Shown here: piece by piece, positions 35,305 through 59,946 of the stretch
Numbering within the stretch: position 1 is the first letter of the stretch
Layout: each line of letters opens with the position of its first letter
Assembly: GCA_013817245.1 (NCBI GenBank)
Contig: JACDDA010000002.1
Coordinates: forward strand, 280,252-344,251
DNA length: 64,000 bases
Direction of reading: 5' to 3'
Origin: Gammaproteobacteria bacterium
GTDB lineage: Bacteria; Pseudomonadota; Gammaproteobacteria; HTCC5015
The notes under the pieces: generated by a model
The model's input: the letters and a program-made list of their open reading frames with translations, nothing else
What the model was told of the DNA's origin: nothing
The model's database searches: none
Position numbers and translations under genes: made by a program

Positions 35305-36084
35305 TTAAATATTTAATCCACCTAGAATCACGCCCGCCGCTTGTAACTTTTGTAACTCTATCGTGCCGCCTTGAAGCACAACCATTGGGTTGGGGTGCTG
35401 TAATTCAAGTGCTATTTTTTCTAGTATTTGTTGTCCGGTTAATTTTGCGGCGTTGTGCTCGTTTTGAATAAGTTGCACCAAACGCGCAGTGACCGGATTG
35501 AGATTGATAAAATGAATTAAGTCTTGGCGATCGCGATAAACAATCAGATGGGTTATTTGTGCCGGCGGCTCTTGCGGTTGATAGTCTGGACTTAGTTGAT
35601 GTACCGGCCATTGATAACTTAATAAGCAGGCTAACGATGATAAAATGGGCGTTGTGTGTAATAAATTCGCATTGGGATTAATATTTTCGAAATTATTGGT
35701 TTCATCTTGTACCGATAGCGCTATTTCAATCCATTCATAATGCGCGAGCTCATGCAAAAAAGGAGGGTCGCATGGCTTTGCTATATGTTCAGTGTTAAGG
35801 AAATACAAAAACTCTTGAGCAATTTCCAGAAAATAGGGCGAGTGATTTTGATGGCGATGCATGAAGTCACGCACCATTGCATGCCAGTCCGCATCTGAAT
35901 ATAGTTTACGTAAGACCGGAAAGCCGGTTGCGATAAAATTTTCTAGATTGTTATAAAACAATTCTCGATAGATCTTCATGCGCCGATCTTCAACATCAGC
36001 AGGCGCAGGATTTTTATCAGGATGACGCAGATGCGCTGAAAATTCATATTGCAGGGTTTTAAAATCACGCACGAGGTTTTTCAT
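35305..36084 (-). CDS. hvfC: HvfC/BufC-type DUF2063 partner of the RiPP oxygenase
   Basis: A 259-residue protein whose N-terminal half is a DUF2063 (RiPP recognition-like) domain: VEDRRMKIYRELFYNNLENFIATGFPVLRKLYSDADWHAM. The family's YF.EI.QEF and HELAHYEWIE blocks follow, and the C-terminal domain ends in a winged-helix-like region (NPVTARLVQLIQNE). In the Haemophilus Hvf system this partner delivers the precursor peptide to the DUF692 oxygenase. It is the last gene of the operon, 5 bp after hvfD. Databases often mislabel it as DNA-binding. Confidence 0.88.
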   Translation of the reverse strand: MKNLVRDFKTLQYEFSAHLRHPDKNPAPADVEDRRMKIYRELFYNNLENFIATGFPVLRKLYSDADWHAMVRDFMHRHQNHSPYFLEIAQEFLYFLNTEHIAKPCDPPFLHELAHYEWIEIALSVQDETNNFENINPNANLLHTTPILSSLACLLSYQWPVHQLSPDYQPQEPPAQITHLIVYRDRQDLIHFINLNPVTARLVQLIQNEHNAAKLTGQQILEKIALELQHPNPMVVLQGGTIELQKLQAAGVILGGLNI

Positions 36085-36089
36085 ATTTT

Positions 36090-36692
36090 TTAATTAGGTG
36101 ATAAATATTTTTTAAGCCAGTAGTCCGCGCTGATCCAGCGACCACCGCCTAAACAAAACAGCGCGAGCAACATAATAAAATAAGTAGCCGCCCATTCGAT
36201 ACCATTATTTAAAATAACAAAGTTGCCTGTTTCGGTCAGCCATTCGTAATCGGTGTGTTGATATAAAGTTTCTTTGGCGTAATTTAAGCGCTGCATGGCA
36301 CCGGCTAAATTGGCGGAGGCAAAAGGCGAAGCTCCGTCATGCACTGCTTGCCAACCATGTTGCCAGTGTACTGTAAACATAGCGACTAACATGGTTATCA
36401 TTAAAGGAATAGAAATCCAACGCGTTGCTAGGCCTAGTAATAATAAAATAGCGCCTCCCATTTCAGTAGCGGTGGCGAGAAATGCCAATAATTGTGGGAA
36501 TGGTAAACCGAGTCCACCGTCACCAAACCACGCAACCGTATCACTAAAGTGCATCATTTTATTGCTGCCCGCCAACCAAAAAATCGGCACCAGATAACAG
36601 CGCAACACTAGTGGCGCCAAGAAATCTAATTGCTGCACAATGTTTAATAAAAAATTGTTGGCCTGTTGCGCATAACGTAATAACAATGACAT
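36090..36692 (-). CDS. hvfD: DoxX-family membrane protein of the hvf operon
   Basis: A 200-residue DoxX-family protein with four transmembrane helices. APLVLRCYLVPIFWLAGSNKM and GLPFPQLLAFLATATEMGGAILLLLGL are family landmarks, and a long periplasmic insert runs about 100-160. DoxX genes accompany DUF692/DUF2063 in hvf and bufferin loci, but their role is not established (quinone-linked redox or export are possibilities). A TATAAT-like hexamer on the minus strand (36719-36724), in the 58-bp gap before it, could be an internal promoter but lacks a -35 box. Confidence 0.85.
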   Translation of the reverse strand: MSLLLRYAQQANNFLLNIVQQLDFLAPLVLRCYLVPIFWLAGSNKMMHFSDTVAWFGDGGLGLPFPQLLAFLATATEMGGAILLLLGLATRWISIPLMITMLVAMFTVHWQHGWQAVHDGASPFASANLAGAMQRLNYAKETLYQHTDYEWLTETGNFVILNNGIEWAATYFIMLLALFCLGGGRWISADYWLKKYLSPN

Positions 36693-36750
36693 AAGTAAAC
36701 CTTTGGCTGAGAGTTTATATTATACGTGGCATTCGGAGAATTGGATGCGT

Positions 36751-38274
36751 TTAAGCGGCCGCATCATTGCGTGTGTTTATTTGCGCAACCGGTGGATACA
36801 ATTCGCTAAAAGGTTTTGAGTGGCCATAGCTTACGACAATGCGTACATGTTTGCGGGTCAAGTGACGGGGATCTTCGACGCCACAAGAATGCGCAATATT
36901 GCCAATACCCAATAACATATTTTTTACATAGTTTGCGATACGTTCAGATTTTAAACGGGGATCTAAACCTTTTTGCAGTTTGACATTGTGCGTCGTGATG
37001 CCGGTAGGACAGGTATTGCGATTGCATTGCAACGCTTGAATGCAACCCAATGCGAACATAAAACCGCGTGCCGAAGAAATAAAGTCTGCACCTACGCACA
37101 GTGCCCAACAAGCGCCAGCAGGTGTGATCATTTTGCCGGAGGCAATAATTTTAATGCGTTCGCGTATTTGATGGCGTGATAATAAATCAATCACTCGCGG
37201 TAAACTTTCTTGAATTGGCAAACCAACATAATCCATTAAGCTTTGTGGCGCAGCACCTGAACCGCCATCACCGGAATCGATGGTGATAAAATCCGGTGCA
37301 GATTCAATGCCGCGTTTTTTTATTTCGCCGCACAAATCATCTAGCCATTCAGTGTCACCGATTACCGTTTTAAAACCACACGGTTTGCCGGTGACTTGGC
37401 GAATTCGGGCGATTAAATTTAATAATTCACTCACATTAGAAACGTCAATGTGTCGATTGGGGCTATGACACGTTTCGCCAACGGTAATGCCGCGGATCGC
37501 AGCAATTTCAGGCGTAACTTTATCGCCGGGTAATAAACCACCCATACCGGCTTTAGCGCCTTGACTTAGTTTTACTTCAAACATTTTAATACAATCATTC
37601 GCGCCTAATTCGCGCAATTTATTGTCATTTAAATCGCCGTTAATATCACGCACGCCAAATTTGGCAGTACCTAATTGAAATACGATATCGGGTTTATAAG
37701 CGAGATGGTATTTTGATAAACCGCCTTCGCCCGTGTTGAGCCAACAACCTGCTTTAGCTGCACCTTCCGATAAAGCCAGCACGGCGGGTTTTGAAATAGC
37801 GCCATAACTCATGGCTGACATATTAAAAAGCGAACGCGCTAAATAAGGTTTTTCGCAATACGGCCCAATTGTAACGGGTGCGGTTTCAACGGCATCTATG
37901 CCTAAGGTCGGAAATGCTGTATTAGGAAAAATTACCGCGCCAGGTTTGGTTAAATCATAGGTAGAACCAAACGCGATGGTGTTATCTAAATTTTTAGCAG
38001 CGCGATAAACCCACGCGCGTTCGGCGCGATTAAAAGGCATTTCTTCGCGATCTTGCGAGAAAAAATATTGCCGAAAAAACTCACCTAAGTGTTCAAATAA
38101 ATACCGAAAGCGACCAATAACCGGAAAGTTATAACGCACGGCTTGAGTAGTTTGGGTTTTATCAATAATGTAAATAACGATAATGCTTAATACGCCTACG
38201 CCGATGGCAACAATAAACAACACCGCCATGACGGCGAGGGCTTGTAATAAATAGAGGGATAATTCGTTATTCAT
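36751..38274 (-). CDS. Membrane-anchored FMN glutamate-synthase-like oxidoreductase
   Basis: A 507-residue protein of the Glu_synthase (GltB central/FMN domain) family without the glutaminase domain. One N-terminal transmembrane helix (about 9-37) precedes the catalytic barrel. The barrel shows MSAMSYGAISKPAVLALSEGA, NTGEGGLSKYH, KLSQGAKAGMGGLLPG, ITIDSGDGGSGAAP, and the cluster motif CIQALQCNRNTCPTG with the C-x5-C-x4-C spacing that holds [3Fe-4S] in glutamate synthase. ATG 38274 has AAGGAA seven bases ahead. It sits 29 bp after hvfB and 58 bp before hvfD. An electron-transfer role for the RiPP pathway is inferred only; the alternative is an unrelated glutamate-forming or ferredoxin-linked oxidoreductase. 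Confidence 0.85.
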   Translation of the reverse strand: MNNELSLYLLQALAVMAVLFIVAIGVGVLSIIVIYIIDKTQTTQAVRYNFPVIGRFRYLFEHLGEFFRQYFFSQDREEMPFNRAERAWVYRAAKNLDNTIAFGSTYDLTKPGAVIFPNTAFPTLGIDAVETAPVTIGPYCEKPYLARSLFNMSAMSYGAISKPAVLALSEGAAKAGCWLNTGEGGLSKYHLAYKPDIVFQLGTAKFGVRDINGDLNDNKLRELGANDCIKMFEVKLSQGAKAGMGGLLPGDKVTPEIAAIRGITVGETCHSPNRHIDVSNVSELLNLIARIRQVTGKPCGFKTVIGDTEWLDDLCGEIKKRGIESAPDFITIDSGDGGSGAAPQSLMDYVGLPIQESLPRVIDLLSRHQIRERIKIIASGKMITPAGACWALCVGADFISSARGFMFALGCIQALQCNRNTCPTGITTHNVKLQKGLDPRLKSERIANYVKNMLLGIGNIAHSCGVEDPRHLTRKHVRIVVSYGHSKPFSELYPPVAQINTRNDAAA

Positions 38275-38303
38275 GAACACTTCCTTGTTGCTATGCAGCA
38301 GAA

Positions 38304-39149
38304 TCAGCTGGCGGCACTGTGTTGTTGTGCTTGAGCTTGGAGCTGATGAATCTTATCGACCTCGGCGAGTAATTCCTGAGTAGCGGGGAAATTAAAATCA
38401 CGTTCAAGTAAGGTGGGGAACACGCCTACGAGTTGGTAAGCGGTTTCTAGCAGTTGCCAAACCGGGTCAATAACATCTGCGCCATGGGTGTCGACGCGTA
38501 AATCTTCGGCTTCGACATAGTGCCCTGCGATATGGGCGTAGGCGATTCGTTGTAAAGGCAGCGCTTTTAAAAATGCGTGGGCATCGTAATGATGGTTAAT
38601 AGAATTCACATAGATATTGTTAAGGTCTAATAATAAATCGCAATCAGCGCGGCTGATGACGGCGTTGATGAAATCAATCTCAGTCATTTCTTGGCCGGGC
38701 GCAGCATAATAAGACACGTTTTCAATCGCGATGCGCTGTCCCAATAATTCTTGTACCCGCATGATACGCGCAGCGACATGGTCAACCGCAGCTTCGGTAA
38801 AAGGGATCGGCATTAAGTCGTATAAATGCCCGTCATCGGAGCAATAACTTAAATGTTCTGAATAACAACGGATTTGATGGGTATTAAGAAACTCTTTGAT
38901 ATCGAGCACCAGGCTCTCATCCAACGGTGCAGGACTGCCTAGCGATAACGATAAACCATGACAAACAAAAGGATAACGTTCGGTAAATTTACGTAACTCT
39001 TTACCCCAGCGGCCGCCCACGCGAATCCAATTTTCCGGCGCGACTTCCATGAAATTAACTTGTGACGGATAAGGATCTGAGAGCGGGCCCGTGAGAGCCC
39101 GTCTCAAACCTAAACCCGCACCAGTAACGCTATAGCGAGGGATTTGCAT
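38304..39149 (-). CDS. hvfB: DUF692 multinuclear non-heme iron oxygenase HvfB
   Basis: MNIO (MbnB/TglH/HvfB) family enzyme, a TIM-barrel iron oxygenase that rewrites cysteine in a peptide substrate. In Haemophilus HvfB it makes copper-binding oxazolone/thioamide pairs at EGKCG sites. The 281-residue sequence carries the family's metal-ligand blocks in order: GAGLGLRR (10-17), CHGLSLSLGS with H64, SEHLSY (E98, H99), IENVSYY (E143, N144), LLDLNNIYVN (D175, N177, N178), HIAGH (H206, H210), DTHG (D220, H222) and LLERDFN. It lies 29 bp after the precursor gene hvfA. Confidence 0.93.
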   Translation of the reverse strand: MQIPRYSVTGAGLGLRRALTGPLSDPYPSQVNFMEVAPENWIRVGGRWGKELRKFTERYPFVCHGLSLSLGSPAPLDESLVLDIKEFLNTHQIRCYSEHLSYCSDDGHLYDLMPIPFTEAAVDHVAARIMRVQELLGQRIAIENVSYYAAPGQEMTEIDFINAVISRADCDLLLDLNNIYVNSINHHYDAHAFLKALPLQRIAYAHIAGHYVEAEDLRVDTHGADVIDPVWQLLETAYQLVGVFPTLLERDFNFPATQELLAEVDKIHQLQAQAQQHSAAS

Positions 39150-39178
39150 AAGGTATAAAACCTACCTAATGAGGATGA

Positions 39179-39577
39179 CTATTTCTTTACTGCAGCTTTG
39201 GGTTCTTCTTTCTTCATGTCAGCGCCGCACTTGCCTTCGCCACATTTGCCTTCAACCGCTGTTTTAGCTTCTGCGCCGCCTTTACCAGCAACACCTTGCT
39301 TCGTGTCACTTCCTGCTTTTTTGTCAGCGCCGCACTTGCCTTCGCCACATTTGCCTTCGCCACATTTGCCTTCAGCATGTTTTGCATCGTCTTTTTTCTT
39401 AGCGCCGCATTTGCCTTCGCCGCATTTACCTTCGGCGCCTGCAACCATGTAGCCGCTGCTCATTTCGGTCATGCCGAAAGGATTTTGTTCAGCTGAAACA
39501 GGTGCTGCTGCTAAAGAAGCTAACAGGGTTACGCCCAAAGCAGAGGCGATCGGGCTAAGCTTGTTTTTATGGTTCAT
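39179..39577 (-). CDS. hvfA: HvfA-type RiPP precursor with seven EGKCG motifs
   Basis: A 132-residue precursor with a Sec signal peptide (about 1-29, cleavage VSA-EQ). A short linker follows, then a Lys/Ala/Gly-rich core with seven EGKCG pentapeptides at 49-53, 54-58, 69-73, 74-78, 79-83, 109-113 and 114-118. They fall in blocks of two, three and two. EGKCG is the motif modified by HvfB/HvfC in Haemophilus influenzae to a copper-binding oxazolone/thioamide pair. AGKGG at 97-101 looks like an eighth unit that lost its Cys. GGAG lies upstream of the ATG, and a 295-bp gene-free region precedes the operon. Predicted role: secreted copper chelator or buffer. Confidence 0.93.
   Translation of the reverse strand: MNHKNKLSPIASALGVTLLASLAAAPVSAEQNPFGMTEMSSGYMVAGAEGKCGEGKCGAKKKDDAKHAEGKCGEGKCGEGKCGADKKAGSDTKQGVAGKGGAEAKTAVEGKCGEGKCGADMKKEEPKAAVKK
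39224..39433 (-). repeat. 15-nt coding repeats for EGKCG
   Basis: The hvfA core contains tandem or near-tandem 15-nt units coding Glu-Gly-Lys-Cys-Gly in a 2-3-2 arrangement, nearly identical in DNA. Such an array can expand or contract by slippage or recombination, changing the number of copper sites. Confidence 0.85.
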
Positions 39578-48686: not shown

Positions 48687-50711
48687 TTATTTAATCCGCA
48701 TGCCCGGCTCTGCACCGCTATCGGGCGTTAATATAAAAATTTCTTTATTGCCGGCACCCGCTGCTAATACCATGCCTTCTGATAAACCAAACTTCATTTT
48801 GCGTGGCGCTAAATTTGCAACCACCACTGTAAGTCGTCCGATTAAATCGGCTGGCTCGTAAGCTGCTTTAATGCCGGAAAATATCTGCCGAGTTTCACCG
48901 CCGAGATCAACGGTGAGTTTTAATAATTTATCAGCGCCCTCGACTAATTCCGCGTTGAGGATCTTCGCTACACGCAAATCGATTTTATTAAAATCATCAA
49001 TACTGATTTCGGCTGCTAAAGGTTGGTTAGTAAGCGCTGTTGCAGTGACAGTATTCTGTGGCGATAAATTTTCTTTGGAGTCTTCAATCATAGCGGCAAT
49101 CTTCTCTGGGTCGACACGCGTCATCAAGGGCGTGAAGTTGTTAATACGATGATCTAATAAAGCGTGCGATACCGTCGCCCAGCTCAGCGCCGGTACATTT
49201 AAGAATTGCTCAGATGCATGTGACAACATGGGCAGCACGGGTTTTAAATACGCAATTAAAACACGATATAAATTTATACCTTGGGTGCAAATTGCATGCA
49301 CTTGCTCTGATTGTTCGGGATCTTTAGCTAAGACCCAGGGTTTTTTCTCATCTATATATTGGTTAGCTTTGTCAGCCAACAACATAATTTCGCGCATGGC
49401 TTGTGAATAATTGCGCGCTTCATATAAGGCCGAGATAGATTCACTAGCGGCAATAAAATGTTGAAAAAGTGCAGGCTCGGGTAATTGGGTTGCGAGTTTA
49501 TTATCGAAGCGCTTATTAATAAATCCTGCGCAACGGCTAGCAATGTTAACGAGTTTGCCCACTAAGTCGCTATTAATGCGCGCAACAAAGTCTTCTAAAT
49601 TTAAATCAATATCATCGACACCCGAACTTAATTTTGCCGCCATGTAATAACGGTAATATTCGGGCTCTAAATGTTGTAAATAGGTTTGCGCCATAATAAA
49701 AGTGCCGCGTGATTTAGACATTTTTTGACCGTTAACGGTTAAAAATCCGTGGCAATACACGGCAGTTGGTAAGCGTAGATTGGCGCCTTCTAACATGGCG
49801 GGCCAAAAGAGCGTATGGAAATACGCGATATCTTTGCCAATAAAATGATATAGCTCGGTGGTGCTATTGCGATCCCAGTATTCATTAAAATTTAGATTGT
49901 GTTGATCGCAGTAATTTTTAAAACTGGCCATGTAACCAATCGGCGCATCTAACCACACATAAAAATATTTACCTGGCGCGTCTGGAATTTCAAAACCAAA
50001 ATAAGGCGCATCACGAGAAATATCCCAATCTTGCAAACCATCTTCAAACCAGTCATTTAATTTGTTGGCAATTTCACTTTGCACATGCTGCGCAGTCCAT
50101 TTTTTTAAAAACTTTTCAAAATTGCCGAGTTTAAAAAAATAATGTTCAGATGCCTTGGTGATAGGCGTAACGCCGGTAATAGCAGAGACTGGATTTTTTA
50201 AATCAGTAGGACTGTAAGTCGCGCCGCAGACTTCACATGAATCACCGTATTGATCTTTTGCACCACAGCGCGGACATTCACCTTTAATAAAACGATCAGG
50301 CAAAAACATATTTGCTTTTGGATCGAAGGCTTGTTCAATTGTGCGTGTTTCGATATGGCCTGCTTGTTTGAGACTTTTATAAATCAGGCTAGCGAATTCG
50401 CGATTTTCAGGTGAATGAGTGGAGTAATAATTATCAAAGTTGATATGGAAACCGGCAAAATCACGACGATGCGCGATATTGTAATTTTCGATCAGGGCTT
50501 CAGGGGTAATACCTTCTTTTTGCGCACGCAACATAATCGGTGTGCCGTGCGCATCATCGGCGCATACATATAAACAATCATGTCCGCGCATTTTCTGAAA
50601 GCGCACCCAAATATCAGTTTGGATATATTCGACCAAATGGCCTAAATGAATGTGGCCATTGGCGTAAGGCAGAGCGCTGGTTACCAGTATTTTGCGAGGC
50701 ATCGTGTTCAT
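48687..50711 (-). CDS. metG: Methionyl-tRNA synthetase
   Basis: Class I synthetase, 674 residues. Visible: [13 protein letters not shown] (HIGH motif), the zinc knuckle [27 protein letters not shown] (KMSKS), the anticodon-binding helical domain, and a C-terminal tRNA-binding/dimerisation domain (about 570-674, [19 protein letters not shown]). All parts are intact. In many gammaproteobacteria metG is directly divergent from mrp; here a nine-gene cluster lies between them. Confidence 0.97.
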
Positions 50712-50787: not shown

Positions 50788-51492
50788 TTATTCAGCGGGT
50801 TGGGCGTTTTTTTGTAATGTCAGCTGCCAATGTTGGGTCGCGCTCAGCGGATAAGCTTGCTGGATGTGAGTTTGTGGTGATGCTAAAGCTGACCAAATAT
50901 CGTCCGGTACTAAGGTATTGTGAGCCAGCAATGTAGAGGCGGCCAATTTTATTTCGCAGTGTATTTGCCACGTTGCGGCAGAAGTTGTCGTCGTATCATT
51001 GTTGACATAAAAAAAACTACATTCGCCAGTTTGAGATTCACTTCCATCTTCGTCAACAAAACCAATTAATGCCGTTTGGGTAGTGGAGGCATCAAGATAA
51101 TGTTGAGCAAGCCATAAAGTATTAACAAATGCGGAGGGTGTTGCGCTCAGCAATAATGTTTGCTGGGGCTGTAAAGCTAAGGCATTTGCTAAATGCAACA
51201 AGGCCATATTGTGTTGAGTATTCATTAATGTAAATGGCATGGGCGGAGAGTTATCCGCCATCACTTGTTTTATCGCCGTTTTACAATCACTTAATGCGCC
51301 GTGTCGTGAACACACAATGAGCGCCGTGTTGTGCGGCAGTGGTGCTTGATTTTTTAAACACGCTAAAGCGCCGCCAATTAGTAATTCAGTTAAACGATTA
51401 GTGCGTCGCAAGTTCAGTCCTGTTTGTTGTTCTAAGGCGCGACGCTCAGGTTGTTCTGCTAAAACATGTTGATGCCAAGTTATGAGTTTCAT
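50788..51492 (-). CDS. Short ketosynthase-like (chain-length-factor type) protein
   Basis: A 234-residue protein that resembles the Ketoacyl-synt_2 / chain-length-factor proteins of aryl-polyene and resorcinol clusters: an N-terminal RRTNRLTELLIGGALACL, then PMPFTLMNTQHNMALLHLANALAL. At the position where a ketosynthase has its active Cys this protein has LLLSATPSAF, so it should not be a condensing enzyme by itself. It overlaps the full ketosynthase gene by 4 nt, suggesting a heterodimer. Last gene of the cluster. Confidence 0.7.
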   Translation of the reverse strand: MKLITWHQHVLAEQPERRALEQQTGLNLRRTNRLTELLIGGALACLKNQAPLPHNTALIVCSRHGALSDCKTAIKQVMADNSPPMPFTLMNTQHNMALLHLANALALQPQQTLLLSATPSAFVNTLWLAQHYLDASTTQTALIGFVDEDGSESQTGECSFFYVNNDTTTTSAATWQIHCEIKLAASTLLAHNTLVPDDIWSALASPQTHIQQAYPLSATQHWQLTLQKNAQPAE

Positions 51493-52631
51493 TGCTTAGG
51501 CCCTATGCGTACTGCAATGCTACTCAGGCTGCCGCCAAACCCTAAAATATTACACAATAAATGGTGCGTTTGATTCTCTAATAAAAAGTGCTCGCGTAAT
51601 GGTTGCAGCGGCAGTAATGGATCTGCGTGTTGTAAGCCACGCGTGCCGGGTAAAAACCCTGCTTCTGCACAGCCTAATAACAAGGTTAGCTCTGCTAAAC
51701 CACTCGCGCCTAAACAATGTCCTAAATAAGCTTTTAATGACGCAATTTTAGTGTTCGTATCAAATAACATCGCCAGACCTTGCGCTTCAGCAAGATCATT
51801 TAAAGCGCTGCCACTGGCTTGCGCTTTAATGTAAGTGATGTCGCTGCTTTGTAAACCACTGTTTGCTAAACATTGTTGCAGCAACGTGATAACACTGCTG
51901 CCATCTTCTTTTAAACCGGTTTGATGCGCTTTGTCTAAAAATTGCGCGCCGCCTAATAATAAACACGATGGTTTGTTGGGATGTGGATGACGACTTAATA
52001 CTATTCCCGCAACTGCTTCACCTAACACCATTCCATCACGTTGTTGATCGAAGGGTTTCATGTTGTTGGCAGATAACAAGCCCATGCCGCCAAAGCCTGC
52101 TAATGCGGTGCGATTAAATAAATCTAAACCGATAATGGTGACGTGTTCTGCGCCGCCACTGGCGATTAAACGTTGCGCAAATAACAACGCATTTAAACTC
52201 GAGGTGCACGCAGTGCTAATGGTTAAAGCGGGGCCTTGCCAATCTAATAATGTGCAGAGGTCATTGGCGATACTAGATAAATTGAGCGTTTGTAAATGCG
52301 GAAAGTTTTGTTCACCTGCGCCGACGTTTAACGCAGAAGAGGCCAATAAAATAGTGTGGGTGCGTAGTGCGTCTATAGAAAGGCCACTGCTGATAGCGCA
52401 TTCAGTAAGGCACTGCGTTAACAGATAATTTTTGCGTTGCTGCCAATCCGCGTTTACATAATTAATTGCGTAATAAGGCGCATCGTAATCTAGCGGCGGT
52501 GGCAGGCGATGGCTAACGATGTGCGGTGCTTGTTGGTTTTGCACGGTGCAGACCGCGTCACGTAAAGATAAGCCGCAGGCGCTGATGTGACTCAGGCCGC
52601 GAATGTGAGCAGGAAAATGTGCAGTGTTCAT
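51489..52631 (-). CDS. KAS I/II-type beta-ketoacyl-ACP synthase with Cys-Gln-His triad
   Basis: A 380-residue thiolase-fold ketosynthase. The nucleophile is present (ISTACTSSLNAL, Cys142), and the second catalytic His with its Lys is present (LKAYLGHCLGASG, Lys300, His305). The first catalytic His, normally in a GxxHGTxT-type motif, is Gln271 in KAQASGSALNDLAEA (codon CAA). Loss of this His would be expected to weaken malonyl decarboxylation. It may work with the short KS-like partner, or transfer acyl groups rather than elongate them. Flanked by the ACP gene upstream. Confidence 0.88.
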   Translation of the reverse strand: MNTAHFPAHIRGLSHISACGLSLRDAVCTVQNQQAPHIVSHRLPPPLDYDAPYYAINYVNADWQQRKNYLLTQCLTECAISSGLSIDALRTHTILLASSALNVGAGEQNFPHLQTLNLSSIANDLCTLLDWQGPALTISTACTSSLNALLFAQRLIASGGAEHVTIIGLDLFNRTALAGFGGMGLLSANNMKPFDQQRDGMVLGEAVAGIVLSRHPHPNKPSCLLLGGAQFLDKAHQTGLKEDGSSVITLLQQCLANSGLQSSDITYIKAQASGSALNDLAEAQGLAMLFDTNTKIASLKAYLGHCLGASGLAELTLLLGCAEAGFLPGTRGLQHADPLLPLQPLREHFLLENQTHHLLCNILGFGGSLSSIAVRIGPKQ

Positions 52632-52662
52632 GAATGACGTGCGTTAATCAATTTTAATTGGA

Positions 52663-52929
52663 TTATTTTGGCGGTAGCGATAATAAATAATCCGCTAAGT
52701 TATTAACCGATGATAAGACGCGACGCGTTTCTTTGCTGTCAGCTAAACGTACGCCGTATTTTTTTTGCAAAGCCATCGATAATTGCAGAGCATCTAAAGA
52801 ATCTAAGCCCAAACGTGCGGTAGGGCCAAATAATAATTCTTCATCTTGAAAGCCATCGCTTGGCGCAGGTTTGTCGCACACTTCTAAAATGAGCGTTTTT
52901 AAATCAGCAATTAATTCGGATTTATTCAT
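52663..52929 (-). CDS. Acyl carrier protein
   Basis: An 88-residue ACP with the phosphopantetheine serine in LGLDSLDALQL (Ser44) and the usual four-helix pattern. The frame extends upstream into the permease gene, but ATG 52929 (MNKSELIADL...) is the natural start and leaves a 19-bp gap to the permease stop. It is the likely carrier for the DarB-like and KAS enzymes of this cluster and corresponds in role to DarC. Confidence 0.9.
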   Translation of the reverse strand: MNKSELIADLKTLILEVCDKPAPSDGFQDEELLFGPTARLGLDSLDALQLSMALQKKYGVRLADSKETRRVLSSVNNLADYLLSLPPK

Positions 52930-52948
52930 AAAGATTTCGCTATTAATA

Positions 52949-54172
52949 TCAGCTAGTAAATTGACGACGTTGATAAAGCCACGTAGCAAATAACGCGCAC
53001 ACAATACCAAAAGTGCTTAGCATGGCTAATTGCGGTGCGACATCTGTTACCGTGGCTTGCCGCAACAAAGTATCAAGCGACGCTTCTAGTCCCCACGCCA
53101 TCGGTGAGATTTGAGTGAGGGCTTGCATAAAATCGGGCATCACAAATTTCGGCACCATGACGCCACCAATAGCGCCTAACAAAATATTGCTAGTGCCACT
53201 AAGCACGGTAGCTTGTTCGGGTGTTTTGGCTAAGGTTGCGATTAATAAACCAAAACCTACGGCAGCAAAACTAACCGCCGTTAATACCATCCATAATACA
53301 AAAAAGTTATTACCAATACGCAACGCATCGCCGCCGGCTAATGGCACAAGATAAATACCAACTAATAACATCATTGCGGCTTGTAATTGATTAATCACCG
53401 CATAAGGTAAGGTTTTCGCCAACAACATCATTAAAGGATGTATGTGCAAACTAGATAAGCGCGCCAGCGTGCCTTGTTTGTTTTCAGTAACTAATAATGT
53501 ACCCATGGGTATCGCAACAAAAAACATGGCGAAAACTAACCATGCCGGTACATTTTGTTGTACTGAAGAAGAAGGATTTATTTTATAAATAGAAGATGAA
53601 TCAGCATTCGGCGCAAAATATTCAATGTTCATAAGATTTTTATAGGCATCGCCGCCTTGTTTGCTAGCGTTGTTGCCCATGCCTAATGGGAAAAACGCCG
53701 TCAATATTTTTTCAGTACGTAATTGCGCTAAGGCTGATTGGATCACGGTTGAAAATAAAGAAACGCGCGCAGTGTTAATAGCCGGATCAATGACGATAGT
53801 TATAATGCTGCGCTCAATTAGCTGGGTAGGATCGGCTAAGGTTGCGGCAAACTCTTTATTTAAAATGACGATGAAATCTAATTTTTTACTGCGCAGCGCT
53901 TGTTCGGCATCTTTGCGCGACAAGATATTTTCTTGCGCGGCGCCGATGGGTTGAGTGGCAAGCAAATCGATAAACTGTTGCGTGGCCGAGCTGGGCTGAT
54001 CCACTAACACGACATACCGATTTAATTCGGCGGCGCGATTACTGTGGAAAGTGTCTTGTAAAGCTAAGGACATAATTAAAATAAAAGCCGCAGGCATAGC
54101 AAACAACACCGCTAAGCCGTGCATATCACGTGACAATATTAAGAATTCTTTTTTAATTAAAGCAGTAAACAT
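52949..54172 (-). CDS. ABC-2 type export permease
   Basis: A 407-residue ABC-2 family permease. One N-terminal helix (about 20-40) precedes a large extracytoplasmic domain (about 45-225). Five further helices fill the C-terminal half, with the conserved region GTLLVTENKQGTLARLSSLHIHPLMMLLAKTL. It pairs with the ATPase encoded 3 bp upstream. It would export or flip the lipid-like product of the cluster; the substrate is inferred from context only. Confidence 0.88.
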   Translation of the reverse strand: MFTALIKKEFLILSRDMHGLAVLFAMPAAFILIMSLALQDTFHSNRAAELNRYVVLVDQPSSATQQFIDLLATQPIGAAQENILSRKDAEQALRSKKLDFIVILNKEFAATLADPTQLIERSIITIVIDPAINTARVSLFSTVIQSALAQLRTEKILTAFFPLGMGNNASKQGGDAYKNLMNIEYFAPNADSSSIYKINPSSSVQQNVPAWLVFAMFFVAIPMGTLLVTENKQGTLARLSSLHIHPLMMLLAKTLPYAVINQLQAAMMLLVGIYLVPLAGGDALRIGNNFFVLWMVLTAVSFAAVGFGLLIATLAKTPEQATVLSGTSNILLGAIGGVMVPKFVMPDFMQALTQISPMAWGLEASLDTLLRQATVTDVAPQLAMLSTFGIVCALFATWLYQRRQFTS

Positions 54173-54175
54173 GGC

Positions 54176-55096
54176 TTAGTCTCGTAAAGAGCGTTGCGTG
54201 AATTGCATGAACAGACTTTCCAGTGATTGATGACCATACTGCAAAGACTGCACTATTAATCCGAGTTGTTGCAATTTTTCAAGTAGATGACTTAGATCGG
54301 CAGGATCTGTAATGCTGCCCGTGTAAAGCGCGGGCGTCAGCGGCGCTAAATTAAATTCTTGAGTAAGGCGAGCGCGGATTAATTCGGCAGGTGCTTGAGA
54401 AAAAGTAACTTGAACCGTAGCGGCACTGCGCTTGAGTAAAGTGCTTAATTCGCCTTCGCAGATAACTTGACCGTGATCAATAATAGCAATGCGATCACAC
54501 AAATATTCTATTTCTTCCATGTAATGACTGGAGTAAATAACTGTTTTGCCGGAGGCTTTTAATTCGCGGGTAGCATCAAGAATAAAGCTGCGTGATTGTG
54601 GGTCAATGCCGACAGTAGGTTCATCGAGCAATAAATAATCAGGATCGCCGATTAAGCCGATCGCTAAATTCAATCGGCGTTTTAGTCCGCCGGAAAGGTG
54701 TTCCGCCGGTTTTTTAAGCACATGTTGTAACTGCGCGAAATTGATGCAGTAATCAATACGTGTCGTCGCGTGTTTGCCCAGCGCACAAACGCCGGCAAAA
54801 AACGCTAAATTTTCATAACAAGTTAACATTGGATAAAAAGCATATTGTTGCGGAACGATCGCGATACGACGTGGTTGTTGTTTATTTGCCATTTGCAACG
54901 CTATGCCGTCCAGCAATATGGCGCCTTGTTGTACGCGTAAGATGCTGGCCAACAAAGATAACAAAGTGGTTTTGCCTGCGCCATTGGGTCCAAGCAGACC
55001 AAAAATTTCGCCTGCGCCAATGGTTAGATTAATGTCATTAAGCGCAACTTGATCGGCTCGCTCATATTGATGCACAATATTTTGAATGTTGAGCAT
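54176..55096 (-). CDS. ABC exporter ATP-binding protein
   Basis: A 306-residue ABC ATPase of the drug/lipid export group. Walker A is GLLGPNGAGKTTLLSLL, the signature is LSGGLKRRLNLAIGL, Walker B is DYLLLDEPTVGIDP and the switch His is in YSSHYMEE. The roughly 80-residue C-terminal extension is typical of partners of ABC-2 permeases. It lies 3 bp before the permease and 4 bp after the BtrH-like gene. Confidence 0.93.
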   Translation of the reverse strand: MLNIQNIVHQYERADQVALNDINLTIGAGEIFGLLGPNGAGKTTLLSLLASILRVQQGAILLDGIALQMANKQQPRRIAIVPQQYAFYPMLTCYENLAFFAGVCALGKHATTRIDYCINFAQLQHVLKKPAEHLSGGLKRRLNLAIGLIGDPDYLLLDEPTVGIDPQSRSFILDATRELKASGKTVIYSSHYMEEIEYLCDRIAIIDHGQVICEGELSTLLKRSAATVQVTFSQAPAELIRARLTQEFNLAPLTPALYTGSITDPADLSHLLEKLQQLGLIVQSLQYGHQSLESLFMQFTQRSLRD

Positions 55097-55100
55097 AGAC

Positions 55101-56102
55101 TTATTTCACATCTTGTTTTAATTGGTTAAAGAAAATTTTCTCAGCATCGGCAATAGCGACTAATTGTTGGCTTAATGCACTAGCGTCAAATGCTTTGCGT
55201 GCTTTACACATGAGCGCTGCATTTAACGCAAATTCACGCCATTGATCACCAATGACAACTAAATTATCAGCATGTTTTTCAAAACGCGGATCATTTAATA
55301 GCTTCGCTACTTCTTGTAAAAATGCGGCGTAAATAAATCGAAAGCCTGCTCCGCCCGTGCCAATTTCTTCTTGCATCCGCACGATATGACCAATGTACAT
55401 TTTATTAAATGTCAGATCGTCGGCTTTTAGTTTGGCGATGCGCCGCGCTAACATACGAATGCCTTTGACACCAATAATCGGTAACGGTGTGTAGAGCATT
55501 ACTTTTACCGTATTCCAGATAGCCGTGCGCAGCATTTTTTCGGTGATAGTTGCTTGGCTTAAGGGCGCTGGATAATACAACAAACCTTTTGGCGCTAAGG
55601 TGCCTTTGGCAAAACGCGCACGTTCTAAATCCGCACGTGCGCATCGAACCGTCATTTCTGCTACTGGATCGCTAATCAGATATTCATCGCCGTCGCGGCC
55701 ATACACAATTAAATTGTGCGCATTAAAATGAAAGCGCATATTTTCAGGAAAATAGGGCAACCAAAATACGGAGGTTTGTAAACCAACCACTTGGCCTTGT
55801 GCTAACAATTCATCTAAACGCGCCATGCCTTTCGTGGGACTGCGAAAAGTTTCAGAATGCATGCGCACGCCTAAAGATTTTTGCAAACCTTTAACGATTG
55901 ATTTTGGCGGCATGCGATAGGCAATTAAAGGTAGCCCCGCAATTTTAATAAATGGCAGATAAGCAAACGATAAACTACTGGATAAACCAAACGCCATAGG
56001 TTCGGAAATATCTAAACCATAATGGCGTAATAAAGAAGTAATCGCACCGCTTTCGCAATGCGCGGCTTGCCGATGTTCAAAATCAGCGGCGGAAGTTTGC
56101 AT
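55101..56102 (-). CDS. BtrH_N/DUF4872-domain protein, putative acyltransferase or peptidase
   Basis: A 333-residue protein whose N-terminal half is BtrH_N, a papain-like fold. The probable triad is Cys16 (AAHCESGAITSLLRHYG), His129 (FNAHNLIVYG) and Asp145 (YLISDPVAE). The C-terminal half is the DUF4872-type helical domain. BtrH in butirosin synthesis transfers an acyl group from an ACP to an aminoglycoside, so transfer from the neighbouring ACP to an unknown acceptor is a reasonable guess. Five bases downstream of the 131-residue gene. Confidence 0.8.
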   Translation of the reverse strand: MQTSAADFEHRQAAHCESGAITSLLRHYGLDISEPMAFGLSSSLSFAYLPFIKIAGLPLIAYRMPPKSIVKGLQKSLGVRMHSETFRSPTKGMARLDELLAQGQVVGLQTSVFWLPYFPENMRFHFNAHNLIVYGRDGDEYLISDPVAEMTVRCARADLERARFAKGTLAPKGLLYYPAPLSQATITEKMLRTAIWNTVKVMLYTPLPIIGVKGIRMLARRIAKLKADDLTFNKMYIGHIVRMQEEIGTGGAGFRFIYAAFLQEVAKLLNDPRFEKHADNLVVIGDQWREFALNAALMCKARKAFDASALSQQLVAIADAEKIFFNQLKQDVK

Positions 56103-56107
56103 TGATA

Positions 56108-56503
56108 TTAGTCCAGTGCAGTTAAAGTGGTAACGCTGATGCCGAGTGCGTCGGCGTAACGTTGCAGCAATGCGGCGGATAATTTTTTGAAAATCCGTGG
56201 TTGGAAGTGACGTTTAATACGCCATTGAAATAATCCCGTGCTTTGCGCTAACAACACGAGATCCATGCGTTGCTTGTACATATGAAACATTAATGGTGAA
56301 ACGGTATTTTGCAAACAGGCTTGTTTTGCAGCGGCGGCTTTTTCTTTGAAATCATCAACTGCTTGCAGGGTTACAATTTCTTCTGCTTGCCAGCCACTAG
56401 AACTAACAATATGAATGTTGCCATCAGCGCCGCGTGCATATACGGCTTTTCGATGTCCACCTAAAGCGATGTTCGCATCTTGAGGCACGTCCTGATCGCG
56501 CAC
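56108..56503 (-). CDS. Small cluster-specific protein, HTH-like C-terminus
   Basis: A 131-residue protein starting at GTG 56503, with GAGG eight bases upstream inside the end of the DarB-like gene. The C-terminal 50 residues (LAQSTGLFQWRIKRHFQPRI, then LLQRYADALGISVTTLTAL) look like an XRE-type helix-turn-helix. The N-terminal part shows GGHRKAVYARGADGN. It directly abuts its neighbours, so it belongs to the operon. It could be a local regulator or a structural partner of the enzymes; no family name is recognised. Confidence 0.65.
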   Translation of the reverse strand: MRDQDVPQDANIALGGHRKAVYARGADGNIHIVSSSGWQAEEIVTLQAVDDFKEKAAAAKQACLQNTVSPLMFHMYKQRMDLVLLAQSTGLFQWRIKRHFQPRIFKKLSAALLQRYADALGISVTTLTALD

Positions 56504-57652
56504 TTACACAACCTCTAAATAAACATAACCGCTGGAGAAACGTCCGCTTTCGGGAATGTACATCAAAATGGTTTCGCCGGTTTTTAATTTGCCACTGTGA
56601 AATAATTCATCGAGCATGATATACGCGGAGGCAGAACCAGTATTGCCTTTGGTCGCTAAGTTAGTAAACCAACGTTCTTGCGGAATAGGAAAATTCGCGG
56701 CTTCTAAATGTTTGATAATGAGTTTGCGAAAATATTCCGATGACATATGCGGCAAAAACCAAGTGACATCATCGGGGCGAATGCCGCGTTTTGTTTGCAG
56801 ATGCAACATCGGTATTTCAACTGTTTGTTCCATGACGTTTTCATTTAATAAACGAACATCTTGTTTGGTGCTGAAAATGGAACGTTGCGCCCATTCATCG
56901 GGCGTGAAATGCGCCCAGCCTTTCATGCTGCCATCGGCTTGTTGTTCGCAACCGGCATACATACAAGCAGGCATTACATGTGCTTGCGATATTATGTCTA
57001 TCCATTTAATTTTTAATGATGGACCTTGCGTGTTGGGTTTGTTTTGTAATAAACAGGCGCCAGCACCGTCTGATAACATCCAGCGTAAAAAATCTTTTTC
57101 AAAAGCAATTTCTGGACGTTCTTGTAAGGCCGCAACATTATGTTCGCTTTCGGCTTGATAATGACGCGCTTGCGCCTGTAAAGATGCGAGTTCGGAACCG
57201 GTTGCTACGGCACATTGTGCTTCGCCGGCGCGCACGGCTAACCAGGTATATTTCAATGCGGATATTCCGGATAAACAAACACCGGCCATGGAAACAATTT
57301 CGCAACGGGGCAGACCTAATTCGCCATGCACCATCACGCCATGATTAGGCAATAACTGATCTGCAATCGATGTGCCGGTAGCTAAGCAATCAATTTTATT
57401 GATATCAAGACCTTGTTGCGCAAAAGCGCGGATGGCTTCTGCGGTTAATTGGGCATTCGTGTGAGTAAATTCACCCGTAGTAGCATCAACTGCATAATGA
57501 CGACTGCGAATTCCATTGCTGCGCAAGACTAAAGCGCGCGCGCGCGAAGGTTTGCCATTAACAATACCTAAACGTTGTTCCATTTCATCATTAGAAACTG
57601 GCGCGTTCGGCATAAAGCTAGCGGTGTGCGTAATATAAACAGCAGAATCCAT
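56504..57652 (-). CDS. darB: DarB-like KAS III ketosynthase
   Basis: A 382-residue KAS III homologue with a full catalytic triad: Cys126 in SMAGVCLSGI, His302 in WFLPHMSSEY and Asn337 in TKGNTGSAS. The N-terminal SNDEMEQRLG...NGKPSRARALVLRSNGIRSRHYA strongly resembles DarB of dialkylresorcinol and flexirubin clusters, which condenses two acyl chains and closes the resorcinol ring. ATG 57652 is used; an in-frame GTG is 12 bp upstream. The DarA-like gene is immediately upstream. Symbol given by similarity; product unverified. Confidence 0.85.
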   Translation of the reverse strand: MDSAVYITHTASFMPNAPVSNDEMEQRLGIVNGKPSRARALVLRSNGIRSRHYAVDATTGEFTHTNAQLTAEAIRAFAQQGLDINKIDCLATGTSIADQLLPNHGVMVHGELGLPRCEIVSMAGVCLSGISALKYTWLAVRAGEAQCAVATGSELASLQAQARHYQAESEHNVAALQERPEIAFEKDFLRWMLSDGAGACLLQNKPNTQGPSLKIKWIDIISQAHVMPACMYAGCEQQADGSMKGWAHFTPDEWAQRSIFSTKQDVRLLNENVMEQTVEIPMLHLQTKRGIRPDDVTWFLPHMSSEYFRKLIIKHLEAANFPIPQERWFTNLATKGNTGSASAYIMLDELFHSGKLKTGETILMYIPESGRFSSGYVYLEVV

Positions 57653-57730
57653 AATAATGACCACGTTAAATTAATTTAAAAAAAATAGTTACATACGTGC
57701 TGAGTGCGGAGGTAGATTTTTTCAGTGTAT

Positions 57731-58648
57731 TTAATTACCCGAAGGCATTTCATAATAATGGCGCAACGTCTTGAGCCGTTGTTGGCGCAATGGACGTAGC
57801 AGACGTTGTATCAATAAGCTAAGTGGTACAACGGTTATAATTAAACAAATTAAAAAAATAATATAAACAATCAATATTGGCCAACGGCGTTTTTGTCCTG
57901 CGCGACCGATGCGCCGAATCAAGCCACCCCAAATACGGAAACTCCGAAAAGCGGCGGTTTCACTGATTAATAATTCAGGTTTTGCGGTTACCGCGCCTAA
58001 GTTTTGCAATAAAGCTTCCGGGCCACGTTCTTTGTCAGCGCGTAATGCTTGCTGCAAGGCATGACCAAATCGATCGCACGCTTGAATATCGCCTGCGGCT
58101 ATACCGGCGGCAGGCAGTCCCCAAAAAGCGTTGCGTTTGCCGGTTAATAACCAGCGTGGGGTGGTAATTAAACTGGCGATAGCACTGCCTTGATCGGTGA
58201 GCACGATGTTAGCACACAAGCGCGCACCTAAATTTGATAGTAGTTTTTTCATGGTTTCTTGCGCGATCAACCACATATTGCGACAAGCGATAACGGTGAC
58301 CACCGGTTTATTGCGTAATACCTGCGCCGCTTGTGGGCTTTGCAGAAATGCCGTAATGGGTTGAGACGGTGAGATGTACCAGACCTGATAGCCGATGATA
58401 ATCAAATCAAACTCTTCAGTGCCTTGCAACGTTAAGGGTTTAATTGGCGCGGGATCGAGATAGACGGATTCTGGAAATGCATCAAAAAAGCGCAAAATAG
58501 GCCACGGAAATGGCGGCGGATTTTGCGGTTGGATGATTTCCACATGCAGACTAATGTCCTCAGCGTCGGCTAATGGCTGCAAGACCCGCTGCATGACCTG
58601 ATGCAATTGACCGGTTTGGGAATAATAAATAGCGAGGACGCGTTTCAT
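57731..58648 (-). CDS. darA: DarA-like protein (flavodoxin-like fold, membrane-anchored)
   Basis: A 305-residue protein beginning MKRVLAIYYSQTGQLHQVMQ, a flavodoxin-type phosphate loop, and continuing with a flavodoxin-like alpha/beta core (FDLIIIGYQVWYISPSQPI, VVTVIACRNMW). A transmembrane helix lies near the C-terminus (about 260-282), followed by a basic tail. This matches the DarA proteins that accompany DarB in dialkylresorcinol/flexirubin loci and are thought to aromatise the ring. First gene of the nine-gene operon, with a 209-bp divergent region to mrp. Confidence 0.82.
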   Translation of the reverse strand: MKRVLAIYYSQTGQLHQVMQRVLQPLADAEDISLHVEIIQPQNPPPFPWPILRFFDAFPESVYLDPAPIKPLTLQGTEEFDLIIIGYQVWYISPSQPITAFLQSPQAAQVLRNKPVVTVIACRNMWLIAQETMKKLLSNLGARLCANIVLTDQGSAIASLITTPRWLLTGKRNAFWGLPAAGIAAGDIQACDRFGHALQQALRADKERGPEALLQNLGAVTAKPELLISETAAFRSFRIWGGLIRRIGRAGQKRRWPILIVYIIFLICLIITVVPLSLLIQRLLRPLRQQRLKTLRHYYEMPSGN

Positions 58649-58857
58649 GCGCGCATTTTAAAGATTTTTATCAACATAACCAGCTTTATACGGGCAGGTT
58701 GTGCCGTTGGTCACATGCAGCGGTACAGGACCGAAATGCTAAGGGAGGCGCGCTAGCAAAATAGACGCTATTTCAAGCTTATTACGCCTTATTGTGACTG
58801 AAGCTAGCGTGTAGAATGCCGACCCCGACGTATCAATAGCCTATTTAGGTGGCCGCG

Positions 58858-59946
58858 ATGGCAAATGTAACTTATGAACAAGTGAAGCAGGTGTTGGCCG
58901 AGTACCAAGACCCTTATTTGGGTACCGATTTGGTTAGCGCGCATGCGCTCAAAAATATCGAGTTGGCTGACGGCAACATTAAGGTGCAAATTCAATTAGG
59001 CTTTCCGGCTAAAACCTACGCCGATGAATTGGCAAGCAATCTGCGCGACGTCATTTCTGCGTTGGCCGGTGTTGCCTCGGTGGTGGTCGACGTGAGTTGG
59101 CAAACCAGCGCGCATGCGGTACAAAAAACCTTAAAACATTTCGATAATATTAAAAATATTATTGCGATTGCATCCGGTAAAGGCGGCGTAGGTAAATCCA
59201 CTACCGCTGTTAATTTAGCATTGGCGTTGGCCGCCGAAGGCGCGCGCGTAGGTATTTTAGACGCTGATATTTACGGGCCCTCAATGCCGCAAATGTTGGG
59301 CATTACCGGCAAACCAGATACTGATGGTAAAGGCATGTCGCCGAAAAATGCACATGGCATTCAAGCGATGTCGATTGGTTTTTTGGTGGATGAAGACACG
59401 CCGATGATTTGGCGCGGACCCATGGTCAGTCAAGCCTTAGAACAATTATTACGAGATACTCGTTGGGATGATTTAGATTATTTAATTATCGATTTACCAC
59501 CCGGCACCGGCGATACACAGCTCACGTTATCACAAAAAATTCCCGTGTCAGGCGCGGTGATTGTTACTACGCCGCAAGATATTGCGTTACTGGATGCGCG
59601 TAAAGCACTCAAGATGTTTCAAAAAGTAGAAGTGCCCGTGTTAGGCATCGTCGAAAATATGAGTTTGCATATTTGCACGCAGTGCGGACATGAAGAAGCT
59701 ATTTTTGGTAGCGGCGGCGGTGACAAAATGGCGCACGATTATGGCATCACTTTGTTGGGGCAATTACCTTTAGCGATGCAGATTCGTGAACAGGCTGATA
59801 ATGGTAATCCCACCGTCGTTGCAGATCCGAATGGTCGCATTGCGCATATTTATCGAGACATCGCGCGCAAAGTATCGGCACGCTTATCGCGTCGCGGTCG
59901 TGACTACGCAGCGAAATTTCCAAAAATTGTCATTCAAAACGATTAA
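58858..59946 (+). CDS. mrp: Iron-sulfur cluster carrier Mrp/ApbC
   Basis: P-loop NTPase that binds and delivers Fe-S clusters. The 362-residue protein has an N-terminal MIP18/DUF59 domain (about 1-85, [20 protein letters not shown]), the deviant Walker [21 protein letters not shown] and [12 protein letters not shown]. The cluster-bridging CxxC is in [13 protein letters not shown] 58858 with AGGTGG just upstream is preferred over GTG 58849. It precedes dcd by 35 bp. Confidence 0.96.

Follow-up and report, generated by a model that had tools for sequence, protein, structure and literature searches.

A nine-gene dar operon between metG and mrp in a gammaproteobacterial genome: the probable dialkylresorcinol half of a split aryl polyene-dialkylresorcinol pathway

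Described dialkylresorcinol systems and the dar operon

The dar cluster of Azoarcus sp. BH72 has been tabulated as darA, darB, darD, darE (BtrH-like), darF (ABC ATPase), a PHD/PilT pair, darI (permease), darC (ACP), darJ (ketosynthase), and darK (PMC3949708). The dialkylresorcinol (DAR) proteins of this strain formed DAR 7 in E. coli, and arcuflavin consists of DAR 7 and a xanthomonadin-like polyene, for which an ester linkage was proposed (PMC3949708). Azoarcus BH72 has two polyene loci, which are physically unlinked (PMC3949708). In Pseudomonas, a DAR cluster is joined to an aryl polyene (APE) cluster of the E. coli/V. fischeri type (PMC10165715). In flexirubin biosynthesis, the ligase-like FlxW, not a BtrH protein, was proposed to join the two halves (Schoner et al.).

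The window analyzed here (the whole stretch of 64,000 nucleotides) carries nine intact and tightly spaced ORFs on the minus strand, running from 58648 down to 50788 with intergenic gaps of -4 to +66 bp. The first-pass annotation described a single-direction nine-gene block between metG and mrp, and this was borne out. The order, darA-B-D-E-F-I-C-J-K, is the same as that of the nine dar genes of Azoarcus sp. BH72 (azo0283-azo0293; PMC3949708); this correspondence comes from comparing gene order and annotation. A match to a characterized cluster with a known product, which the first-pass annotation had named as an outcome that would count against it, has in this sense been found. Gene letters follow the Azoarcus naming (NCBI DarG is Azoarcus darD, and NCBI DarH is Azoarcus darE). 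The genes and their flanks are as follows.

metG, 48687-50711, minus strand: flanking gene, 76 bp downstream of darK and in the same direction
darK, 50788..51492, minus strand: chain-length-factor-like protein, 234 aa; no family match above cut-off
darJ, 51489..52631, minus strand: ketosynthase-like protein; PF02801/PF00109; best-scoring solved structure 7f28_B
darC, 52663..52929, minus strand: acyl carrier protein, 88 aa from ATG; PF00550 E 1.8e-6
darI, 52949..54172, minus strand: ABC-2 type permease; PF12698 E 9.9e-31
darF, 54176..55096, minus strand: ABC transporter ATPase, DrrA/NodI type; PF00005 E 3.8e-32; TIGR01188 216 bits, below cut-off
darE (NCBI "DarH"), 55101..56102, minus strand: probable BtrH-type acyltransferase, 333 aa; PF14399, PF16169, NF053550
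darD (NCBI "DarG family"), 56108..56503, minus strand: 131 aa; NF053536 166 bits, cut-off 70
darB, 56504..57664, minus strand: StlD/DarB-family ketosynthase, 386 aa; NF005293 601 bits, cut-off 450
darA, 57731..58648, minus strand: first gene of the operon, 305 aa; flavodoxin-like DAR aromatase/condensing protein
mrp (apbC-like P-loop protein), 58849-59946, plus strand: flanking gene, divergent from darA across a 200 bp gap

Neighboring darA and darB genes of DAR-forming families mark the block as a DAR cluster. In DarB, Cys130-His306-Asn341 is kept in at least 95% of 73 alignment rows. DarA has weak flavodoxin HMM matches (Pfam/NCBIfam) and no curated family above cut-off; it occupies the place of Azoarcus darA and was assigned because it has 44-55% identity to the gene preceding darB in relatives and is adjacent to darB there. 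The DarD product, previously called HTH-like, has no HTH family match and belongs to the DarG/DarD family, which is conserved in 79 alignment rows. The start of darC is probably the ATG at 52929 rather than the listed TTG at 53010, which overlaps darI. DarC keeps the serine of the DSL motif (D43 and S44 are conserved in 67 rows), and DarK is named chain-length-factor-like because its position is conserved. Promoter- and terminator-like sites were no more frequent than in shuffled sequences.

Relatives were collected by scanning genome contigs with the DarE alignment, which gave at least 567 confirmed loci, of which 80 were kept. The order darA-B-D-E is as in the window in 70 of these 80, which together with the DarB score upholds the earlier identification of dialkylresorcinol genes. 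Since the first eight genes (darA-B-D-E-F-I-C-J) keep the order of the window in 37/80 kept relatives (of at least 567; darK was also detected in nine), the arrangement of the block is not due to chance. In 23/80 (again of at least 567), including Pseudomonas and Marinobacter, darF-I-C-J is inverted, and the collinear layout is the usual one in Betaproteobacteria.

A second biosynthetic operon, of the HvfABC/bufferin-like RiPP kind, lies in the window at 35305-39577 on the minus strand. Its precursor (39179-39577, 132 aa) appears to carry a signal peptide and contains repeats of an EGKCG motif. The operon also encodes an MbnB/TglH/ChrH-type enzyme (PF05114, 350 bits) and a DUF2063 partner (PF09836); DoxX-like and FMN glutamate-synthase-like proteins, both assigned by eye, are in between.

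The unlinked aryl polyene cluster and the aromatic starter acid

The same genome holds an aryl polyene FAS-like gene set, as expected for a polyene-DAR hybrid. This nearly complete ape-type cluster is on another contig (G000:C1:40597-53621, which is L008 4597-17621), and its genes are in the following order.

First part: CLF (PF13723), LPLAT, two ACPs, COG4648-like membrane protein (label given by position; the sole match, IspA, is sub-threshold), AMP ligase, dehydratase, GT/LPLAT fusion
Second part: thioesterase, LolA-like protein, FAD oxidoreductase, DUF3261, KS, ApeP-like dehydratase (PF22817), FabG2, KS

The order is the same as that of E. coli ApeC-R (PMC8253772), with a FAD-dependent oxidoreductase in place of the ApeM exporter. 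ApeM is absent from the cluster, and the MMPL matches of the genome are on other contigs. No equivalents of ApeA or ApeB were seen before the first gene of the cluster. Taken by itself, the block had been judged not to be an aryl polyene or a full flexirubin cluster on the grounds that ketoreductase, dehydratase, and LPLAT genes were missing; such genes are present in the cluster on the other contig, and that reading does not hold for the genome. One block read alone can therefore mislead, as polyene genes judged absent may sit elsewhere in the genome.

We consider it likely that the dar operon supplies the DAR moiety in a pigment pathway of the arcuflavin/flexirubin kind whose aryl polyene and dialkylresorcinol halves are encoded at separate loci. 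The first-pass annotation favored a free dialkylresorcinol-type lipid as the product, but with an ape cluster in the same genome, a resorcinol-polyene ester is more likely. The alternative would be that a free dialkylresorcinol, acting as a signal, antifungal, or membrane lipid, is exported by DarF/DarI, that the BtrH protein adds an ordinary fatty acyl group, and that the ape cluster is independent. DAR-only systems do exist, including darABC of P. chlororaphis (PMC6403133) and DarABC/PauR signaling in Photorhabdus; an exporter pair is encoded within the block, and the dar and ape loci are on different contigs. However, the P. chlororaphis cluster is listed as darABC plus regulators, with no BtrH gene (PMC6403133), and Azoarcus, with the same gene set and unlinked polyene loci, has a DAR that ends in a conjugate (PMC3949708). 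Co-occurrence also argues against a free product. DarH was above cut-off in 18 genomes of a class sample (n = 369), and all 18 have the GT-LPLAT polyene marker, compared with 5 of 32 DarH-negative genomes (E 1e-20; Fisher p 2e-9, kinship ignored), although this marker is not confined strictly to ape clusters and weak hits could represent glycosyltransferases or acyltransferases of other kinds. Aryl polyene genes lie side by side with dar (within 10 kb) in 14/80 kept relatives (of at least 567). On balance, a free dialkylresorcinol as the end product is quite improbable.

A point against the split pathway is that no ammonia lyase, XanB2, or UbiC match, which could account for the polyene starter acid, was obtained in the genome. 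The searches covered aromatic ammonia lyase (PF00221; control search positive in five genomes), XanB2-type chorismatase (PF21168; positive in 7/20 genomes, including G312 of the same family), and UbiC (PF04345; positive in E. coli). 4-Hydroxybenzoate may come from an enzyme family other than these. Since the starter enzymes (TAL/HAL, XanB2, UbiC) are without a match, the polyene-DAR hybrid is given as the most likely working assignment, not as proven membership.

In genome G312, a single contig (L137, G312:C262) carries dar genes, ape genes, and a XanB2-type chorismatase together, unlike the genome of the window.

Predicted roles of DarE and of DarJ, DarK, and DarC

CtaG and CcbD use carrier-protein-bound acyl groups to acylate amines. 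A sequence search of solved structures with DarE gave no match, and its structural relatives came from a fold search with an AlphaFold2 model (pLDDT 88, pTM 0.89). The model matched CtaG over 293 residues (Z 25.9, 3.0 A), AziU3/U2 (Z 25.4), and CcbD (Z 21.7), with nearly the whole chain matched; general papain-like folds scored well below these (Z about 12). The titles of the matched PDB entries mention the CtaG variants C11A, H128A, and D144N, a complex with PHBA, and CcbD together with a carrier-protein domain. Family scores agree: PF14399 E 3.9e-51, PF16169 E 2.5e-49, and NF053550 ("BtrH-related acyltransferase DarH") 486 bits with a cut-off of 300. No variation occurs at DarE residues C16, H129, and D145 among 25 diverse sequences.

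The modeled DarE fold is that of CtaG (closthioamide), AziU3/U2 (azinomycin), and CcbD (lincosamide) (Z 21-26), and DarE has the invariant Cys, His, and Asp. Sequence identity to these proteins is 10-15%, and the acceptor expected for DarE is a phenol, not an amine. With its BtrH_N domain, conserved Cys/His/Asp set, and a predicted fold that matches, DarE has the features of BtrH-type carrier-protein acyltransferases, and it is probably a carrier-protein-dependent acyltransferase. The earlier suggestion that the BtrH protein is an acyl-transfer enzyme is in this way made probable by its families (PF14399/PF16169, NF053550) and by the CtaG-type fold of the model. From family, fold, and co-occurrence, we infer that DarE transfers the aryl polyenoyl chain carried by an ape ACP onto the resorcinol. 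The concrete prediction, which departs from the FlxW proposal for flexirubin, is that a BtrH-type protein with a CtaG/CcbD fold forms the polyene-resorcinol ester.

By analogy with homologues, DarB would convert two fatty-acid-derived thioesters to a cyclohexanedione, and DarA would aromatize this to a 2,5-dialkylresorcinol, with DarC as the carrier. As in relatives, the unlinked ape cluster would assemble the aryl polyene on ACPs that it encodes itself. The papain-like DarE, with its Cys-His-Asp set, would then join the carrier-bound aryl polyene to a phenolic OH of the resorcinol as an ester. Judging again from relatives, DarF/DarI and the Lol-like ape proteins may carry the ester in the direction of the outer membrane, and polyene-DAR pigments would serve there as lipid-phase antioxidants. 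DarJ, DarK, and DarC would form a ketosynthase/CLF-like accessory set.

DarJ retains Cys142 and His305, and the first ketosynthase active-site His is replaced by Gln271. The motif count covered 62 other loci. At this site, Gln is present in 30 and His in 8 of 38 collinear relatives, and His is present in 23/23 of the inverted type (80 kept of at least 567). Because 30/38 collinear relatives have Gln, the substitution is a lineage trait and not decay. It weakly suggests transfer or holding of acyl chains, rather than condensation of malonyl units, as the more likely function of DarJ. A further idea, which we regard as speculative and unlikely, is that in the collinear (mainly betaproteobacterial) clusters, including the window, DarJ is non-condensing (it keeps the Cys and the second His and has Gln, in a Q-A-[AS]-G motif, in place of the first His) and works with DarK/DarC as an acyl-transfer/docking module that passes polyene or resorcinol precursors to DarE, so that the halves would be joined by a two-enzyme relay that is so far undescribed. 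It is highly improbable that the dar operon and ape cluster are silent or relict loci that yield no product after loss of the aromatic starter enzyme: the missing ammonia lyase, XanB2, and UbiC and the loss of one catalytic His in darJ could be read in this way, but the nine ORFs are intact and closely spaced, the active-site residues of DarB, DarC, and DarE are retained, the Gln form of DarJ is common in collinear relatives, and the starter may have another source.

Insertion, origin, and comparison with known systems

The order was represented by four genomes in the comparison of the metG-mrp site. In G086 of the same family (98% complete; L141), mrp and metG are divergent and 134 bp apart with no dar block, and no DarB was above cut-off. 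In G312, the dar genes are beside ape genes elsewhere, and another gene precedes mrp. Neither metG nor mrp was found in the dar locus of any of the 80 kept relatives (of at least 567), 50 of whose loci span at least 19 kb. Given these layouts in G086 and G312 and the absence of metG and mrp from the dar loci of the 80 relatives, the site appears particular to the lineage of the window. Across the four genomes of the order, a small sample, gain of dar at metG-mrp plausibly fits better than repeated loss, and the first-pass impression of an inserted block is plausible.

The DarB of the window groups with Betaproteobacteria (SH-aLRT 97 in a quick-method tree; end branch 0.51), and the DarB of G312 is elsewhere in the tree on a long branch; these positions are consistent with separate acquisition of dar in the two genomes. 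Best matches of the dar genes are mostly betaproteobacterial, and those of the ape genes are from other Proteobacteria, mostly gammaproteobacterial, among the loci compared, a comparison that is biased because the fetched loci are all near dar. A DarB phylogeny had been suggested as a check for a Bacteroidota grouping. DarB joins the betaproteobacterial group, away from four plasmid outgroup rows (three Bacteroidota), and a Bacteroidota origin of darB was not supported by the sequences compared; the Bacteroidota rows in this tree are orphan plasmid DarB-like proteins only, with no flexirubin-cluster sequences. Base composition is not foreign (GC 0.443 for dar and 0.439 for the window). As for traces of a mobile element, there is no tRNA in the window, and no repeat is shared by both block edges. 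No plasmid-borne dar operon was seen (plasmid matches to DarB have <60% identity, and four that were inspected are without a dar operon). Megablast against E. coli genomes gave no match.

Orphan DarB-like ketosynthases are encoded on Bacteroides, Prevotella, and Phocaeicola plasmids (L180 8001-9143, L181 9007-10143, and L182 6004-7146), directly after an HTH or TetR-type regulator, and no annotated darA or BtrH gene is nearby.

Flexirubin clusters of Chitinophaga pinensis and Flavobacterium johnsoniae (PMC3992019) share DarA/DarB and polyene FAS-like genes with the genome of the window, and their product is a DAR-polyene ester. They encode Bacteroidota proteins, and C. pinensis has a tyrosine ammonia-lyase that was not found in the window's genome. 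Scores against the Bacteroidota flexirubin families are below cut-off in the window (DarB NF053539 504 bits, cut-off 550; DarG NF053545 125 bits, cut-off 170).

Marine Pseudomonas hybrid APE-DAR V1 clusters (PMC10165715; compared by description) and the Pseudomonas/Marinobacter/Porticoccaceae loci L075, L090, L104, L107, L109, L110, L112, and L115 combine E. coli/V. fischeri-type ape genes with DAR genes, as in the genome of the window. In this type of hybrid locus the two halves are adjacent and darF-I-C-J is inverted, whereas in the window the dar genes are collinear and ape is on another contig.

In Azoarcus BH72, as in the genome of the window, polyene genes are at loci separate from dar. 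The PHD/PilT toxin-antitoxin pair between darF and darI of BH72 is absent from the window. BH72 has xanthomonadin-type arc polyene genes and a XanB2-type chorismatase; in the window's genome the polyene cluster is of the E. coli/Vibrio type, and no XanB2 was found. What this analysis usefully adds is the unlinked ape cluster, evidence from the modeled fold of DarE, and the Gln motif of DarJ. The dar operon is itself ordinary and well conserved, with a known counterpart, and it provides a further example of a Betaproteobacteria-type dar operon that occurs together with an unlinked aryl polyene cluster of the E. coli/Vibrio type.
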